Shown in pieces: positions 15,768 to 46,695 of a stretch of 47,188 nucleotides of DNA. This stretch comes from Mycoplasmataceae bacterium. Lineage in GTDB: Bacteria; Bacillota_I; Bacilli_A; Mycoplasmatales; Mycoplasmoidaceae. The DNA lies in assembly GCA_031284985.1 (NCBI GenBank), contig JAITWZ010000011.1, positions 1 through 47,188 of the forward strand, read 5' to 3'. Each line of letters starts with the position of its first letter. Positions within the stretch are counted from its first letter, which is position 1. A program made the position numbers and the translations under genes. The notes below the pieces were generated by a model that ran no database searches, was not told where the DNA came from, and was given only the letters and a program-made list of their open reading frames with translations.

Positions 15768-16394
15768 ATGAAGTATACTGCACGAGAAAAACACGCTAAT
15801 ATCATAAGCGATTTCTTAATTTTTCTAAATAAAGTAACAGACAAATTTGTTTTAAAAGGTGGTACAGCATTAGCAAAATGCTATAATCTCGATAGATTTG
15901 AGGATATAGACTTAGATAGTGAAAAAGGAAATATCACATCTATTGTAAAAAATTATTGCAAGTCAAAAAACTTTACGTATTGTGAAAAGAAAAATACTAG
16001 TTATGGTCAGAGATTTATGATCGATTATAAAGTTGATAGACAGTTATTAAAGGTAGAAGTAAGGCTAAATGAAAAAATCAACAAGGATGACGTATGTAAA
16101 ATTAATGGTATAATTGTTTATAAAATAAACAGATTAACTCTAATGAAATTGCAAGCGTATGATTCTAGAGATAAGATTCGTGATATGTATGATATTGCAT
16201 TCATTATCAATAACTACTGAGATTCTCTAAATGAGGTAATATGAAAAATAATAGCATTGAGTTTTGAAAATAAAGGTTTAGAACATTTTGATTATTTGAT
16301 AAAACAACAAAAAGATGACCTTATTGATACTAAAAATTTTTTAGAAAAAACATTAATTGCATTCAACAAAGTTGAAGAATTTAGCAGAAAGTAA
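15768..16394 (+). CDS. AbiEii/AbiGii-type nucleotidyltransferase toxin
   Basis: The 208-residue product has the family signature LKGGTALAKCY (GG at residues 31-32) followed by RFEDIDLD (acidic residues D46, D48, D50), the nucleotidyltransferase metal site. RDKIRDMYDIAFII is the conserved C-terminal part. A UGA at 16218-16220 is Trp (NNYWDSLNE). AbiEii proteins are toxins of type IV-like toxin-antitoxin and phage-abortive systems. The gene follows a small charged ORF and a transposase remnant, consistent with horizontal arrival. Confidence 0.85.
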
Positions 16395-16472: not shown

Positions 16473-17420
16473 CTACTTATCTTTTTTCTCATTAACGATA
16501 CAATTAATCGCAATTGCTACTTCACCATGGCCAGTGATAATAGTACCTGGACGATTAGTATAATTACAAGAATTTCCAGCTGCATAAATATGTGGAATAT
16601 TGGTTTTTTGTGCCTGGTCAACAATAATTTTATTAGTTTCATCTAGTTTTAGATTTTCAAAGATATTCAAACCGTGGACATCAATTGTTTGCCCGTATTG
16701 CACGATAATTATGTCAAAATCAATTTTATCTTCAACATTTGTTAATAAATTTTTAATTATTAATTCTTTACCTTTAATTTCAACTGGAGCACTATTTAAA
16801 ATAACATTAACTTTATGTTTTTGTAAATTATCCACATTAACACCATTTGCACGAAACTGATCACGACGATGAATTAATGTAACATGTTCAGTGATTTGTT
16901 GTTTTTTGAACTCATTAGCCCAATCCACAGCGCTATCACCACCACCAAGGATTACAACTCTTTTATCTTTATATTTTTCAATTTCATCGATAGTGTATTG
17001 TGTGTTAGTATGACTAACTCCAGGAATTTGGAGAAGATTAGGTGTAAACATTCCCGCGCCAGTAGCAATGATGATGTTATGGGCTTTAATAGCATTGGTA
17101 TTTGTAGTACATGTGTAATAATTATCTGTATATGTTACAGATAAAATTTTTGTTTCTAGTAAAGTCGGAGTGTTGCTAACTTGTAAATTATTAATTAAAT
17201 GTTGCACTAAATCATGAGCTTTAATATCATGAAACATGGGATAATCATGAATAGATTTTTGAGGATATAAAATTACTGGCTGGCCACCAAGATAGGCATT
17301 AGCTTCAACTAATATTGCCTTTAAACCTTTGATGTGTGCAAGATATGCACCATATATGCCAACAGGTCCACCACCAATTATTACAACATCAAATACTTCG
17401 TCAAAATTTATTTTGTTCAT
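16473..17420 (-). CDS. Ferredoxin-NADP+ reductase, thioredoxin-reductase-like
   Basis: The 315-residue flavoprotein has an FAD motif IIGGGPVGIYGAYLA near residue 14, IIATGAGMF, and an NAD(P)-binding ILGGGDSAVDWANE near residue 157. The CxxC redox pair of thioredoxin reductase is absent, placing it in the YumC-type ferredoxin/flavodoxin reductase group. HYAAGNSC-like AAGNSCNY near the end is family-typical. It would move electrons between NADPH and ferredoxin, which matters here because of the hydrogenase. The start ATG overlaps the upstream gene's TAA (TAATG). Confidence 0.88.
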   Translation of the reverse strand: MNKINFDEVFDVVIIGGGPVGIYGAYLAHIKGLKAILVEANAYLGGQPVILYPQKSIHDYPMFHDIKAHDLVQHLINNLQVSNTPTLLETKILSVTYTDNYYTCTTNTNAIKAHNIIIATGAGMFTPNLLQIPGVSHTNTQYTIDEIEKYKDKRVVILGGGDSAVDWANEFKKQQITEHVTLIHRRDQFRANGVNVDNLQKHKVNVILNSAPVEIKGKELIIKNLLTNVEDKIDFDIIIVQYGQTIDVHGLNIFENLKLDETNKIIVDQAQKTNIPHIYAAGNSCNYTNRPGTIITGHGEVAIAINCIVNEKKDK

Positions 17421-24105: not shown

Positions 24106-25011
24106 ATGAAATTGAAACAAATTAGTAAATGAATGTTATGCATCTTATTACTGAGTGTATTATCTTTATCAGTGGTTTTATCAAGTTGTAGTAAAACCGA
24201 CTCATCACCTTATGAGAATGATCGCACTAAATATAATTTGTCTGGTACTAATTGGCAAGGTCACATTACAGGACAAGTAACAATTAAAGTGGATGAAATA
24301 GGTCATTTTGCAACTATTGTTAGTAGTACTTCATACACTGCTCATGATTTAATCATTCCCCAATATGTATATGTGGATGGTATAGCATATACGATGAGTG
24401 CTAATGGTTTTACTTTAAATTCTGAATATGTAACTGGGACAATTTATGTTCCACCTAGTTTTATATATGTTGGTGGTAAAAATGATGCGATTGCAATTAA
24501 TTGTCCAAATGCAGAAACTGTAATCTTCCCAGCAACTGTTACTGAATTATTTTCTCATAGCATTAATGTTAAATATATTAAAATTCCTAAAACCATCACC
24601 TATATTGGTTCTGAGGCTTTTAAAGACTGTACAGCAATAAATGAAATTGTCATTTCTGACGGAATCACAAACATCAACGATAAAACATTTTATAATTGTA
24701 TTGGTTTAACAAAAATTACTCTTCCATATGATTTACTTAGTATTAGTGAATACGCTTTTTGAGGTTGTGAAAACTTAGCAACAATAGAATTTGGAAAATA
24801 TATTAGAAAAATTGACAATCATGCTTTTGGGTTATGTACAAGTTTACCAATTATTTTTATAGGTGAGAGTGTAACAGAAATGGGTGAAAGTGTTTTTGCT
24901 TCATGAACAGAATTACAAACTATTAAATTACCGTGATATTATAAACAAAAACCTGCTAAATGAAATGATTTATGATCTGCTAATTCTATTGCAAAAATCG
25001 AATATAGATAG
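24106..25011 (+). CDS. BspA-like leucine-rich-repeat lipoprotein 1
   Basis: The 301-residue surface protein has a lipoprotein signal ending LSSC (Cys near residue 28). After a spacer domain of about 110 residues (NWQGHITGQVTIKVDE, YTAHDLIIPQYVYVDG), LRR_5-type repeats follow: VTELFSHSINVKYIKIPKTITYIG, then EAFKDCTAINEIVI, KTFYNCIGLTKITLP, YAFWGCENLATIEF and HAFGLCTSLPIIFI. Each repeat ends with the FxxCxxLxxIxLP pattern. UGA Trp codons are frequent in the C-terminal part. It shares architecture with the gene at 36798. Confidence 0.9.
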
Positions 25012-25016
25012 TTGTT

Positions 25017-26762
25017 TTAATGGTGAAATAATTTATGTGCTTTCTTGTCACCAGGAATGATTTTCATATTTTTATATAAATTAATGGCAGAAGGGTTGTT
25101 GTGAGACATTTGGATTTTTGCTTTTACGTCTTGCTTATGTAAAACAGCACTACGCTCACTTTTATAATTATCATTAATTGCAAGGTTTTTATTTATTATT
25201 GGTTGTCCACCACCATTGATACAACCACCATTACAGGCCATAATTTCAATAAATTGAAACTTCTTCATTAAATCGCTATTTAAAAATTTAAACACATTAG
25301 CAGCCCCGCTAACGATTGCAGCATGTAATTTAACTTTACCAATCAAAACATCAGTAGTTTTAACACCAGGATAATCTGGTACTGGTGTGTAAGTTATCTT
25401 CGCTGCTTTATTCGTGCCTTCAACCAGACATTTTGCTGTTCTAATTGCAGCTTCCATCACTCCACCTGCTGTTCCAAATATCACACCAGCACCACTATAA
25501 TCACCAATTGGTGTATCAACTGCTTCATCCTCAAGGTTTTTAAAGTCAATATTATGCATTCTAATCAATGTAGCAAGTTCACGTGTTGTTAACACAGCAT
25601 CAATACTTTTATCCAAACTAGCTTCATATTTTTTAGCAATACATGGCATAATTGATACAACAAACAAGTCTTCTTTTTTTATTTTTTTATCAGTAATAGT
25701 TTGTAAATAGTAATTTCTAGCAATTGCTCCAAAAATTTGTTGTGGTGTTTTTGTTGTTGAAAGACAAGGTTTTAAATTGGGATAAAAATTATTAGCTAAA
25801 CGATTCCATGCTGGGCAACATGAAGTGAACATGGGCATTGTTGAATCCCCTGAATTGTTGGCTGTAATACCAAACGCATTATTTTTAATTGGCAAATGTA
25901 AACGGTGTAGCAACTCAGTAGCTTCTTCCATAATTGTTATATCAGCTGCAAAACTTATATCAAATACTTTTTTAAAACCAATTTTTCTTAAAGCAGCATA
26001 AATTTTACCAGTAACATCAGTACCAAGTTTTAGGCCGAATTCCTCTCCTAATGCAGTTCTAACAGCAGGTGCAATTGCCACAATCGCATGTTTATTTTTT
26101 ATTGCTTTTTGAACAATTTCAATATGACTCTTTTCAGTTAGGGCACCTGTTGGACAGTTATTAACACATTGACCACACAATAAACAATTAGTTTTATCAA
26201 GGCAAATACTATTTTTTAAAGAGGTATTTGGTTTGATTAGAGTAGTCACTTTATCACCATTTTTTTCAGTACCAAGTACTATACTCTTAGTTGTTGTTAA
26301 AACACTACAAGTTGTTACACAACGCTGACACTTAATACATTTATTATTATCAATAACAATCGCAGTACTTGTATCGTTTAATAATGCTTTATCAGCAACA
26401 TAAGGTTTTTTTATCTGGGGCTTATTAGCAATAATTAATTTTAAAAATTCACAACTTGTACGACGCATACATGTACCACACTTAAAATCATGCTTTTCTA
26501 ATAATTGTTCAACTCTCAACTTGTGAAATGCACGAATTTCTTCATCATCTGTAATAATTACATCACCATCGTTCACAACAGTCCCACATGCTAATTTCTT
26601 ATTACCATTAATTTTTACCAAGCAGTAGCCACATTTGGTAATGTTATTACATTCTTTTAAATAACATAATGTTGGTATAATTATATCATTTCTCTTACAA
26701 AACTCAATGACATTTTCTTGCTTGTTGTTTCATGTGAATTTTTTGCCGTTAACAGTTATCAT
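25017..26762 (-). CDS. hydA: [FeFe]-hydrogenase, modular (CpI-like)
   Basis: Catalyses reversible 2H+ + 2e- to H2. The 581-residue product matches the Clostridium pasteurianum CpI architecture. It has an N-terminal [2Fe-2S] domain (CYLKECNNITKCGYC, then C58), a His-ligated [4Fe-4S] site (H91, C95, C98, C104) and two ferredoxin-type clusters (C142, C145, C148, C152; C193, C196, C199, C203). The H-cluster domain has L1 TSCCPAW (C315 proton relay, C316 ligand), L2 MPCIAKKYE (C374) and L3 MACNGGCINGGGQP (C510, C514). All ligands are present. Start is ATG 26762; one UGA Trp lies in the N-terminus. Directly downstream of cmk on the same strand, 34 bases apart. Maturases are not in the window. Confidence 0.95.
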
Positions 26763-26796: not shown

Positions 26797-27471
26797 TTAT
26801 TGTGTATTAAATTTCGGATTATTAATAATTGACATGAATTTATCATATAAGAAGTTAGTGCACTCATCAATAGTTTTACCAGTAGTATCTAAAAATAAAG
26901 CATCAGGTGCTTGTTTCAAAGGTGAAATAATACGTGTCATATCTAATTCATCACGTTTTAGCAAATCTTCTAGAATTGCATCAAAACTATCAACTTTACC
27001 ACTTTGTTCCCAACGACGTTGTGCACGTAATTTAGGATCAGCTGTAACATAGACTTTAAGAGTAGCGCCAGGAAACATAACAGTAGTCGTATCTCGACCT
27101 TCAATAACAATGTTAGCTAATTTTGCAATTTTCTTTTGCGTATCACTTGATGCTACACGGATTTCAGGGATTTTAGAAATTAATGGAACAAACGATGAAA
27201 TTTCTTTGCTATAACATAATTTGGTTACATCTACTCCATTTAAAAAAAATGAATCACCTGACTGATTCACATTTGTTTCATTAATAATTTTTAAAATAGC
27301 GTTTATGTCGGTGATATCGGTATTTGCATTTTTAAGAGCAATCGCATAACAGCGATATAAACCGCCTGAATTAATATAAGTAAAACCAAGTTTTTTCGAC
27401 AACGCTCTAGCGATGGTGCTTTTGCCAGCACCAGCTGGACCATCCATTGCTATTTGGTAGTATACTGACAT
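26797..27471 (-). CDS. cmk: Cytidylate kinase
   Basis: Phosphorylates CMP and dCMP. The 224-residue product starts MSVYYQIAMDGPAGAGKST with the P-loop, then YINSGGLYRCYAIAL (family YxDTGAMYRA), IVIEGRDTTTVMFPGA, KVYVTADPKLRAQRRW and DELDMTRIISPLKQAPDALFLDTT. Full length. It probably heads a two-gene transcript with hydA, an unexpected pairing. Confidence 0.95.
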   Translation of the reverse strand: MSVYYQIAMDGPAGAGKSTIARALSKKLGFTYINSGGLYRCYAIALKNANTDITDINAILKIINETNVNQSGDSFFLNGVDVTKLCYSKEISSFVPLISKIPEIRVASSDTQKKIAKLANIVIEGRDTTTVMFPGATLKVYVTADPKLRAQRRWEQSGKVDSFDAILEDLLKRDELDMTRIISPLKQAPDALFLDTTGKTIDECTNFLYDKFMSIINNPKFNTQ

Positions 27472-36797: not shown

Positions 36798-37625
36798 ATG
36801 TATAGCAAAATTAAAGTCGCTAAAATTCTATTATCCACAACTATTGTATTATCTAGTTTTCTTGTACTAGCTAGCTGTGGCGAAATCAAACCAAGTACAG
36901 TAGTTCAATACGATTCTTCTGGAAAAAATTGAGGTGGATATGTTAGTGGTCAATTAGATATAAGGTTTGACGATAATGATCACACTGCTTATATTCATGA
37001 TGCTAATTCATACGTAGCACATGATTTAGTAATCCCTTGAACCATTTGACAGAACGATACTGCATATACAATAAACTTAGCTAAATCTAAATTTACACCT
37101 AACGGTGACATTACTGGTAAACTTACAATCCCTTACAATGTTGTTGAAATTGGAAATGACGCATTCGCACATTGTAGTGGTTTAAACTCAGTCATCTTGC
37201 CACCAACTTTAAAAACTATTGGAGATTTTACTTTTTCTTCATGCACAAATTTAACAACAATCATTATTCCAGATAGTGTGACAAATATTGGAATAGGTTG
37301 TTTTAATAATTGTACTAATTTATCAATTATAGGTATAGGAACAGGTTTGCAAAGCATAGCAAGTTTAATGTTTTATGATTGCGCTAATTTATCAATATTC
37401 TTTATCCCAACTAATATCACTAGCATCGGTAGCCAAGCGTTTTTTGGTTGTACAGGATTATCTGTATTGGTAATTTCAGAAAATGTCACAGTTGTTGGTA
37501 AGGAAGCATTCAAAGGTTGGTCTACTAACCAAACAATAATGGTATGATGAGAATCTAGTGATACACCAGCGGATTGAAACGAAGATTGAAACTCCAGTGA
37601 AGCAACAATTATATATTCTAGCTAA
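36798..37625 (+). CDS. BspA-like leucine-rich-repeat lipoprotein 2
   Basis: The 275-residue product has lipobox VLASC (Cys near residue 27), then the same spacer domain as the gene at 24106 (NWGGYVSGQLDIRFDD, YVAHDLVIP). LRR_5 repeats follow: DAFAHCSGLNSVILPPTLKTIG, FTFSSCTNLTTIIIPDSV, then CFNNCTNLSIIGI, MFYDCANLSIFFIP, AFFGCTGLSVLVI and AFKGWSTNQTIMV. The shared N-terminal domain shows the two genes are true paralogs and not just repeat carriers. Likely surface adhesin. Confidence 0.9.
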
Positions 37626-44647: not shown

Positions 44648-46468
44648 TTACAGTTTTTTAAATCTTTCAATAATTGTATTAGCAATTGAATTATCATCTA
44701 AATTGTATCGTTCCATCAATGCATCATAAGGAATAAAATCAGTATATTCTTTTTTAGCTCCAAAATTTAAAACAACACGTTCTTTTTGTGAAGCATAATG
44801 TGCAAAAAATTTTTGACCAAATCCACCATCAACAATGCCATCTTCAATTGTCACAAGTAGTTGTCAATCTGATTTTATAGCAAGTGCGCCACTTAAAAAT
44901 AAAAAATTCACATTAGTGATGCTGCGTGGGTTGATTACTGTAACCTCACAACCAAATTTTTCCTTCACTATACGCGCAACATTAACTGCTTTCTTAAAAA
45001 ATTTCCCCAAACCAACAATTACTATATCATGACCTTGTTGATAGATTTCAGGTTTTAGCATAAAGGAAATGTTTGGATAAACAGCAGTGGTGTTTTTTAA
45101 TAATGATTTTGGCTGCTTAACTGTATTCAATTGGTACTCTAATGGTGGAATTTTTCTTTTATCTATTTCTGATTCATCGTCTTGACACACTCTTATTGCA
45201 ATAGGGAACTGTGCCTTTTTTGAAAATTCAAGCATCATTTTGTATTCGGCATCACAAGTTGGTGATAAGTAAACTAAATTAGGTATATTACTAAGCATAG
45301 CAATATCGTACATACTAACATGGGAATAATCAGATGTATAGATTCCACCACCAAATACCAACAAAGTAGCTGGTGTATTATTCATTGTTCAGTCTTGCAT
45401 AATTTGGTCATATGCTCTTTGAATAAATGAAGAAGCGGCACATATATATGCTTTTACACCAGATGCGGCTAAACCTGAAGCAACTGCTACTGCACTTTGT
45501 TCAGCAATACCAACATCAATATATCTTTCTGGACATTTTTGTTGTAGTGTTCTTCCAAATAAAGGAGTGCCAGGAACAACAGCAACGACATCTGGATTTG
45601 CCAAAATGAAGTCGATAGTTGAATCTGAGTCATTTTTATTTAAATCAGCTGTTTCACCAGTAACAGGATCAAATGGACTAACACGATAGTGTCACAACTC
45701 TGTGTGTTGCTCTGCATATGGTAGTCCTTTCCCTTTTTTATTATGCACATGGATAACAACAGGCTTTTGTATATCTTTAGCAATATTTAATGCATCTATA
45801 ACTTGTTGTACATCATTGCCGTCTTTAACATAATAATATTCAAAACCAAATGCTTTAAACAAATTTACAGGACTTTGTCCATTACTTGTACGTAATGCTT
45901 GTAAATTTCCATATAAACCACCAGCATTAGGGTCAATTGAAAATTCATTATCGTTTATAAGTAAAATGAAATTAGATTTTAAATACCCTGCAATATTTAA
46001 ACCTTCTAAAGCCTCACCACCAGATAATGAACCATCCCCTAATACGGCAATCACTTTATAGTTTTGCTTGCGAAAATCTCGTGCATAAGCTATTCCACAT
46101 GCTAGGGAAACTGAAGTGGAAGTATGTCCAACATTAAAATGGTCATGTGGGCTTTCTGTAATATTTGTAAATGGAGAGCAACCGTCTTGAATGTGGAAAT
46201 TTTTAAATAAATCAAGTCTACCAGTTAATAACTTATGTGGAATTGATTGGTGTGATACATCTCAAACAATTTTATCTTTTGGTGATTCAAACACATAGTG
46301 TAAGGCAATGGCGGTTTCAACAATACCAAAATTTGGTCCAACATGACCTCCAACTTTAGAGATTTTATCAAGCATAACAGTACGAATTTCACTCGCTACT
46401 TCTTTTAACTGAGTAATAGAGAGTTTTTTAAGATCTTCAGGATTTTGAATTTTGTCAAGATATGCCAT
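44648..46468 (-). CDS. dxs: 1-deoxy-D-xylulose-5-phosphate synthase (transketolase family)
   Basis: Makes DXP from pyruvate and glyceraldehyde-3-phosphate, the entry to the MEP isoprenoid pathway and to thiamine/pyridoxal synthesis. The 606-residue product has GGHVGPNFGIVETAIALHYVF, WDVSHQSIPHKLLTGR, the thiamine diphosphate motif VLGDGSLSGGEALEGLN...NDNEFSI, YIDVGIAEQSAVAVASGLA and TIEDGIVDGGFG. Length is slightly below the usual 620-640. Start is ATG 46468, 6 bases after a -10 box; another ATG lies at 46483. Confidence 0.92.
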
Positions 46469-46474
46469 ATATAC

Positions 46475-46480
46475 ATTATA
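46475..46480 (-). promoter_or_regulatory. -10 box of dxs (leaderless)
   Basis: Minus-strand TATAAT ends 6 bases before ATG 46468. Confidence 0.5.
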
Positions 46481-46695
46481 CATTTTAAGAAAGGATTTAA
46501 ATATATAAAGTAAGGTCTGTGTACTTTCTTCCTTGTTTTAAATGTTAATGAGATAAAAGCGACAGACAAAAATTACAATATGTTATACTTATTGGTCCGT
46601 TTTTTTTACTTCCAAAAAAGTGATATATGTCATAGTATAAGATTATATTTTGTTTGTTGGTAAAAAATCAAAGCAATCAACTCAATCTAAATATT

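Follow-up and report, generated by a model that had tools for sequence, protein, structure and literature searches.

HydG, one of the maturases of [FeFe]-hydrogenases, is absent throughout a genus of Mycoplasmatales that conserves the hydrogenases themselves (HydA), and judging from sequence searches the same absence beside conserved HydA is apparently class-wide. This pattern is what is new here; the enzyme itself is of a known type, and isolated cases of HydA without maturases were already known. No report of maturase-less HydA across the class was found in the open literature searched, although subscription hydrogenase surveys may already note it, and a hydrogenase in Mycoplasmatales likewise appears unreported in that literature. 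The gene at the center of the analysis, hydA, lies in a window of 47,188 nucleotides (the whole stretch of DNA that was analyzed) belonging to the draft genome of an uncultured mycoplasma (61 contigs, 824 kb, completeness 82%), which is referred to below as the source genome.

A predicted five-cluster hydrogenase of the CpI type

A complete modular [FeFe]-hydrogenase with its full set of H-cluster cysteines and with four accessory cluster sites had been proposed for this locus by the first-pass annotation. The coordinates proved exact for the hydrogenase reading frame, the strand is minus, and the claim about the clusters is correct far beyond chance, with 20 of 20 cluster ligands present in the alignment to CpI of Clostridium pasteurianum. 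The gene and its parts are:

25017-26762, minus strand: hydA; its product of 581 aa (code 4) is a modular [FeFe]-hydrogenase of the CpI type with five clusters (reading frame and translation, Pfam/NCBIfam, PDB phmmer, model and fold search)
26547-26759, minus strand: N-terminal [2Fe-2S] domain, residues 2-72, C33/C44/C47/C59 (PF13510; columns of CpI 34/46/49/62)
26421-26522, minus strand: His/Cys3 [4Fe-4S] FS4C domain, residues 81-114, H91/C95/C98/C104 (PF22609, 1.2e-13; CpI alignment)
26136-26351, minus strand: two [4Fe-4S] F-clusters, residues 138-209 (PF12838; 8/8 Cys against CpI)
25209-26093, minus strand: H-domain, residues 224-518 (PF02906, Fe_hyd_lg_C, 5.5e-81)
25806-25826, minus strand: L1 motif TSCCPAW; C315 corresponds to the CpI C299 proton donor and C316 to the CpI C300 ligand
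25623-25649, minus strand: L2 motif MPCIAKKYE; C374 is a ligand and K377 corresponds to CpI K358
25200-25247, minus strand: L3 motif EIMACNGGCINGGGQP; C510 and C514 are ligands
25023-25169, minus strand: small-subunit-like C-terminal domain, residues 532-580 (PF02256, 1.2e-7)

The 581 codons are free of frameshifts, and Trp is encoded by one UGA (W11) and one UGG. Against TIGR02512 (group A) the gene scores 420.9 bits, above the cut-off of 405.95; its score of 644 against NF040762, with a cut-off of 900, places it outside that narrower curated clade. CpI matches residues 2-580 of the product in a PDB search (E ~1e-146) with an identity of about 44% over the alignment, and CpI structures are the best PDB fold matches to the AlphaFold2 model (pLDDT 85.6), with a predicted similarity of TM 0.90-0.91 and a best rmsd of 2.4. 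The ligands comprise all four H-cluster Cys and 16 of 16 accessory-cluster residues: four of four Cys for the [2Fe-2S] cluster, His94 and three Cys for FS4C, and eight of eight Cys for the F-clusters. The proton path is kept in full (five of five; CpI C299/E279/E282/S319/R286), and ten of eleven residues of the H-cluster pocket are as in CpI, the sole change being S323->T; the CpI site numbers used for ligands, proton path and pocket are what we take to be the positions in that enzyme. With the L1, L2 and L3 motifs, the H-cluster Cys, the accessory clusters and the family score all in place, hydA is, by its sequence, a gene for a group A [FeFe]-hydrogenase of the CpI type.

Genomic context and origin of hydA

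The flanks of hydA are chromosomal and include cmk, ribosomal proteins L35/L20, enolase, dnaG and alaS (L35, L20 and alaS were assigned by recognizing their sequence). The nearest of these is:

26797-27471, minus strand: cmk, (d)CMP kinase (TIGR00017), directly upstream of hydA on the same strand with a 34-bp gap

Co-transcription of cmk and hydA is possible. Both the GC content of hydA (31.7%) and its GC3 (18.9%) match those of neighboring genes, most of its larger neighbors also use UGA, and a tRNA-Trp(UCA) was found in the source genome. Because HydA is nearest to Clostridiaceae enzymes, the contig might be thought to be contamination from a Clostridium-type bacterium, but UGA-Trp codons in hydA and most of its neighbors, the matching GC3, the core mycoplasma genes on either side, an identity to Clostridium relatives of just 46-47% and a HydA homologue in a second member of the genus leave that idea with almost no probability. 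Contamination is ruled out by UGA use, GC3, synteny and relatives, and the earlier view of the gene as native holds on these grounds together with the tRNA.

Several other genes of the window deserve mention. BspA-type leucine-rich-repeat lipoproteins, which are candidate surface or adhesion proteins, are encoded at 24106-25011 (plus strand) and 36798-37625 (plus strand), the second being assigned by sequence similarity only; one of the two genes is convergent with hydA. A DXP synthase-like protein is encoded at 44648-46483 (minus strand) in this mycoplasma genome, and a motif scan gave no other clear MEP-pathway gene beside it. An AbiEii-type nucleotidyltransferase gene lies at 15768-16394 (plus strand).

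HydA lineages in the genus and the order

At least 19 of 36 genomes of the genus carry a group-A HydA, 18 of which exceed the curated cut-off, and in the tree these proteins form three separate lineages, each grouping with known active enzymes. The CpI lineage consists of the source genome and one relative, G013 (n = 2); the A6 lineage spans 12 genomes, in nine of which a NuoF-type gene adjoins HydA; and a short M2-type lineage of ~450 aa, without N-terminal domains, is found in five. A further, divergent HydA occurs in eight genomes of the genus, and the single one scanned is of type B1 (489 aa). None of the other-genus genomes of the order, among those listed, reached the group-A cut-off, and IMG/VR yielded one distant HydA (31%).

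The branch leading to the source HydA is long, and its closest relative is the HydA of G013. Both fall in the Clostridium/CpI clade, the source HydA being closest to Clostridiaceae enzymes; each remains in that clade when the other is left out, and this stability answers the long-branch warning on the source HydA. A bifurcating HydABC role for the source hydA was rejected, given its place in the CpI clade and the lack of NuoF.

Proton-path residues are kept in all 19 group-A HydAs of the genus. In relatives without maturases, dN/dS was 0.03-0.05 when closely related A6-type HydAs were paired and 0.09-0.16 in pairs of the short M2 type, which shows strong purifying selection on both types. The pair formed by the source HydA, a protein without a close relative, gave a saturated and uninformative 0.38.

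Two sequence features of the other lineages were also observed. The L1 motif reads TSCSPGW in A6-type HydAs of the genus (e.g. L002) and in class relatives, so that Ser replaces the cubane ligand that is C300 in CpI; the same variant is seen in HydA1 of Acetobacterium woodii (7q4v/7q4w). In the two M2-type loci read, a gene for a ~210-aa membrane protein (L014:2618-3253, L019:831-1463) overlaps the beginning of the short hydA by ~14 bp; the protein had no Pfam/NCBIfam match and is possibly a partner or a transporter.

Absence of HydE, HydF and HydG

HMM searches found HydG in none of 36 genomes of the genus (E<=1e-10), 11 of which are at least 90% complete, and HydE in none of 23; in the same number of genomes no HydF exceeded the cut-off, and its matches were limited to the N-terminal GTPase domain. 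The HydG model is sensitive, as it matched Thermotoga maritima, plus E. coli and other controls at a loose threshold, probably via paralogues. The source genome was also searched by tblastn, in stretches totaling 835 kb with overlaps, using HydE, HydG and HydF from the complete operons of two class relatives: nothing was found for HydE or HydG (E<=0.01), HydF gave the GTPase domain only, and HydA as positive control was recovered at 5e-140. All six radical-SAM proteins of the source genome—MiaB, MtaB, HemW, RlmN (assigned by recognizing its sequence), NrdG and an AmmeMemoRadiSam enzyme—were assigned to families other than HydE/HydG. The search for hydE, hydF and hydG that had been suggested as a check thus came out negative by both HMM and tblastn: in place of the canonical HydA-HydEFG system, the source genome has HydA with HydE, HydF and HydG absent.

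We consider it highly improbable that maturases are encoded but were missed through an incomplete draft or extreme divergence. The source genome is indeed fragmented and incomplete, and mycoplasma proteins evolve fast, but a sensitive model gave no HydG in any genome of the genus, the near-complete ones included, tblastn for HydE and HydG was negative in a single-contig relative as well, and the radical-SAM complement is fully accounted for. An extra radical-SAM enzyme linked to HydA was likewise rejected, the counts being similar (5-7) in HydA-positive and HydA-negative genomes. The AmmeMemoRadiSam-system radical SAM enzyme (L104:458-1303, G000:C49) is an observation of its own in so reduced a genome.

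Counted with both group-A HydA and HydG at E<=1e-60, a class sample of 296 genomes contained HydA in 173 and HydG in 19, every genome with HydG being HydA-positive. HydG is absent from 154 of the 173 HydA-bearing genomes (e.g. G290, G069, G080, G102, G223, G226), single-contig ones included. All HydG matches in the class exceed 430 bits, so that the choice of threshold is an improbable explanation of the gap between HydA and HydG. Within one genus, g58, HydG is present in G098 and absent from G107. G290, a class relative assembled as a single contig of 1,061,998 bp and 99% complete, carries PFOR and, at loci L200, L218 and L219, a HydA adjoining NuoF-/NuoE-type genes (HydABC), a second, group-B-like HydA, and, beside a SpoIIE-type gene, a third HydA that matches FeS and, weakly, PAS. 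Neither HydE nor HydG was found in G290 by tblastn (E<=0.01), and its HydF matches cover the GTPase domain only. Together with the class counts, this genome indicates that maturase absence is common in the class and not a mycoplasma accident.

Electron partners and metabolism

The source genome encodes a 2[4Fe-4S] ferredoxin of 58 aa (G000:C3:35-211); a motif scan of this genome, which is a pattern scan and not proof, gave no other ferredoxin-type protein besides HydA. A candidate partner of the ferredoxin lies in the window:

16473-17420, minus strand: FNR2-type ferredoxin-NADP reductase (FNR in the PDB, 1e-52), without the CxxC of thioredoxin reductase

LDH, GAPDH, pyruvate kinase, a SufS-type aminotransferase and NrdD were also found. 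Searches of the draft, which is 82% complete, turned up none of PFOR, PFL and NuoF (for NuoF, no PF01512 match and a negative tblastn), and PFOR and PFL are likewise lacking in G013, which has the same HydA type; in the genus, 26 of 36 genomes do have PFOR. Given the state of the draft, missing electron partners may exist. The failure to find PFOR/PFL/NuoF here, and PFOR and PFL in G013, suggests that H2 uptake feeding ferredoxin, NADPH and radical-SAM enzymes is at least as likely as H2 release.

For the earlier claims these results are mixed. An anaerobic life of the organism is supported by the NrdD/NrdG genes. Of the proposed electron donors ferredoxin was found and PFOR was not; the combination named in advance as fatal, a lack of all maturases and all electron donors, is seen in full for the maturases and in part for the donors: ferredoxin and FNR are present, but PFOR/PFL/NuoF were not found. 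The statement that H2 metabolism is very unusual for mycoplasmas stands as regards a native CpI-type HydA, which is rare among them, but the H2 metabolism, deduced without regard to the maturases, is unsupported in the form in which it was put.

Maturation and function of HydA

HydE, HydF and HydG have all been described as essential (PMC6212873). With HydEFG held indispensable for activation of [FeFe]-hydrogenases, a HydG-less genus with constrained HydA exposes a large gap in the picture of activation. Where HydA is conserved and HydG is lacking, it follows that organisms share the cofactor, that maturation takes a route not yet described or that HydA also does something else, and because HydA alone is routinely read as H2 metabolism, each of these three options would change the reading of hydrogenase genes in metagenomes.

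The reading we somewhat favor is a functional, ferredoxin-linked hydrogenase of the CpI type, laterally acquired from a Clostridiaceae-like donor, whose [2Fe] cofactor is obtained externally or by an unknown route. The gene would have retained its function after the transfer. The general Fe-S machinery, of which SufS is present, would insert the cubanes, including [4Fe-4S]H, for which insertion by this machinery has been described (PMC6212873). The [2Fe] subsite would come from outside the cell, supplied by an organelle of the host or by H2 producers living alongside, or alternatively through a still unknown internal route. HydA would then trade electrons with ferredoxin. As PFOR/PFL/NuoF were not found, the ferredoxin probably connects to NADP(H) by way of FNR, and also to radical-SAM/NrdG enzymes; HydA could run towards H2 uptake for low-potential electrons or towards H2 release as a sink. 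An external source of the cofactor is chemically feasible, since synthetic [2Fe]adt fed to living E. coli or Synechocystis containing apo-hydrogenase leads to activation (PMC6984386). Mycoplasmatales MAGs are among the putative protist endosymbionts in a paper on termite symbionts (PMC11257099), which makes a hydrogenosome-bearing host, as proposed by the first-pass annotation, plausible, as a possibility, here. For the [FeFe]-hydrogenases of the genus as a whole, and probably of most HydA-bearing class members too, we see evenly balanced chances that they are matured without self-encoded HydEFG, with [2Fe] either a public good shared by protist hydrogenosomes or neighboring bacteria or the product of an undiscovered pathway. 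We know of no natural free pool of the [2Fe] cofactor and of no importer for it.

HydA might instead have been kept as an Fe-S electron-transfer protein without the [2Fe] subsite, its hydrogenase activity lost. This main rival, which we rate as rather unlikely, agrees with the failure to find HydEFG in the genus and has parallels in the maturase-less HydA of Rhodospirillum rubrum, for which inactivity or another role was proposed (PMC4967309), and in Blastocystis ST1, without HydF and HydG, for which another electron acceptor was proposed (PMC5608401). It does not sit well with the retention of diiron-site and proton-path residues across three lineages, nor with G290, where the three hydrogenase-like proteins kept without HydE/HydG are hard to explain without an H-cluster and where one HydA, with its weak PAS match and SpoIIE neighbor, resembles H2 sensors. 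To our knowledge, the proton-path residues have no role other than H2 chemistry. The proton path kept in all three lineages and the partner genes (NuoF-type beside A6 HydA) favor a working enzyme, which we therefore rank above reuse.

Comparison with known systems

The study HydA is like CpI of C. pasteurianum, an M3-type, group A ferredoxin hydrogenase, in being full-length, in its five clusters, ligands and proton path, and in its C-terminal small-subunit domain; it differs in that it is 44% identical and belongs to a code-4 genome in which HydEFG were not found. The HydABC enzymes (A6) of A. woodii and Thermoanaerobacter kivui are of the same type as those of genus relatives with an adjacent NuoF-type gene, whereas the study hydA has no NuoF partner and falls in the CpI clade. 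Ca. Mycoplasma girerdii, a symbiont of Trichomonas, is comparable as an anaerobic mycoplasma with ferredoxin (PMC5476646). PFOR and PFL occur in that species and a hydrogenase could not be identified (PMC5476646), whereas in the source genome a hydrogenase is present and PFOR and PFL were not found. R. rubrum, Entamoeba and Blastocystis ST1 likewise have HydA without full HydEFG (PMC4967309, PMC5608401); those are isolated cases, whereas here the pattern extends over a bacterial genus and most of the HydA-bearing class genomes sampled.
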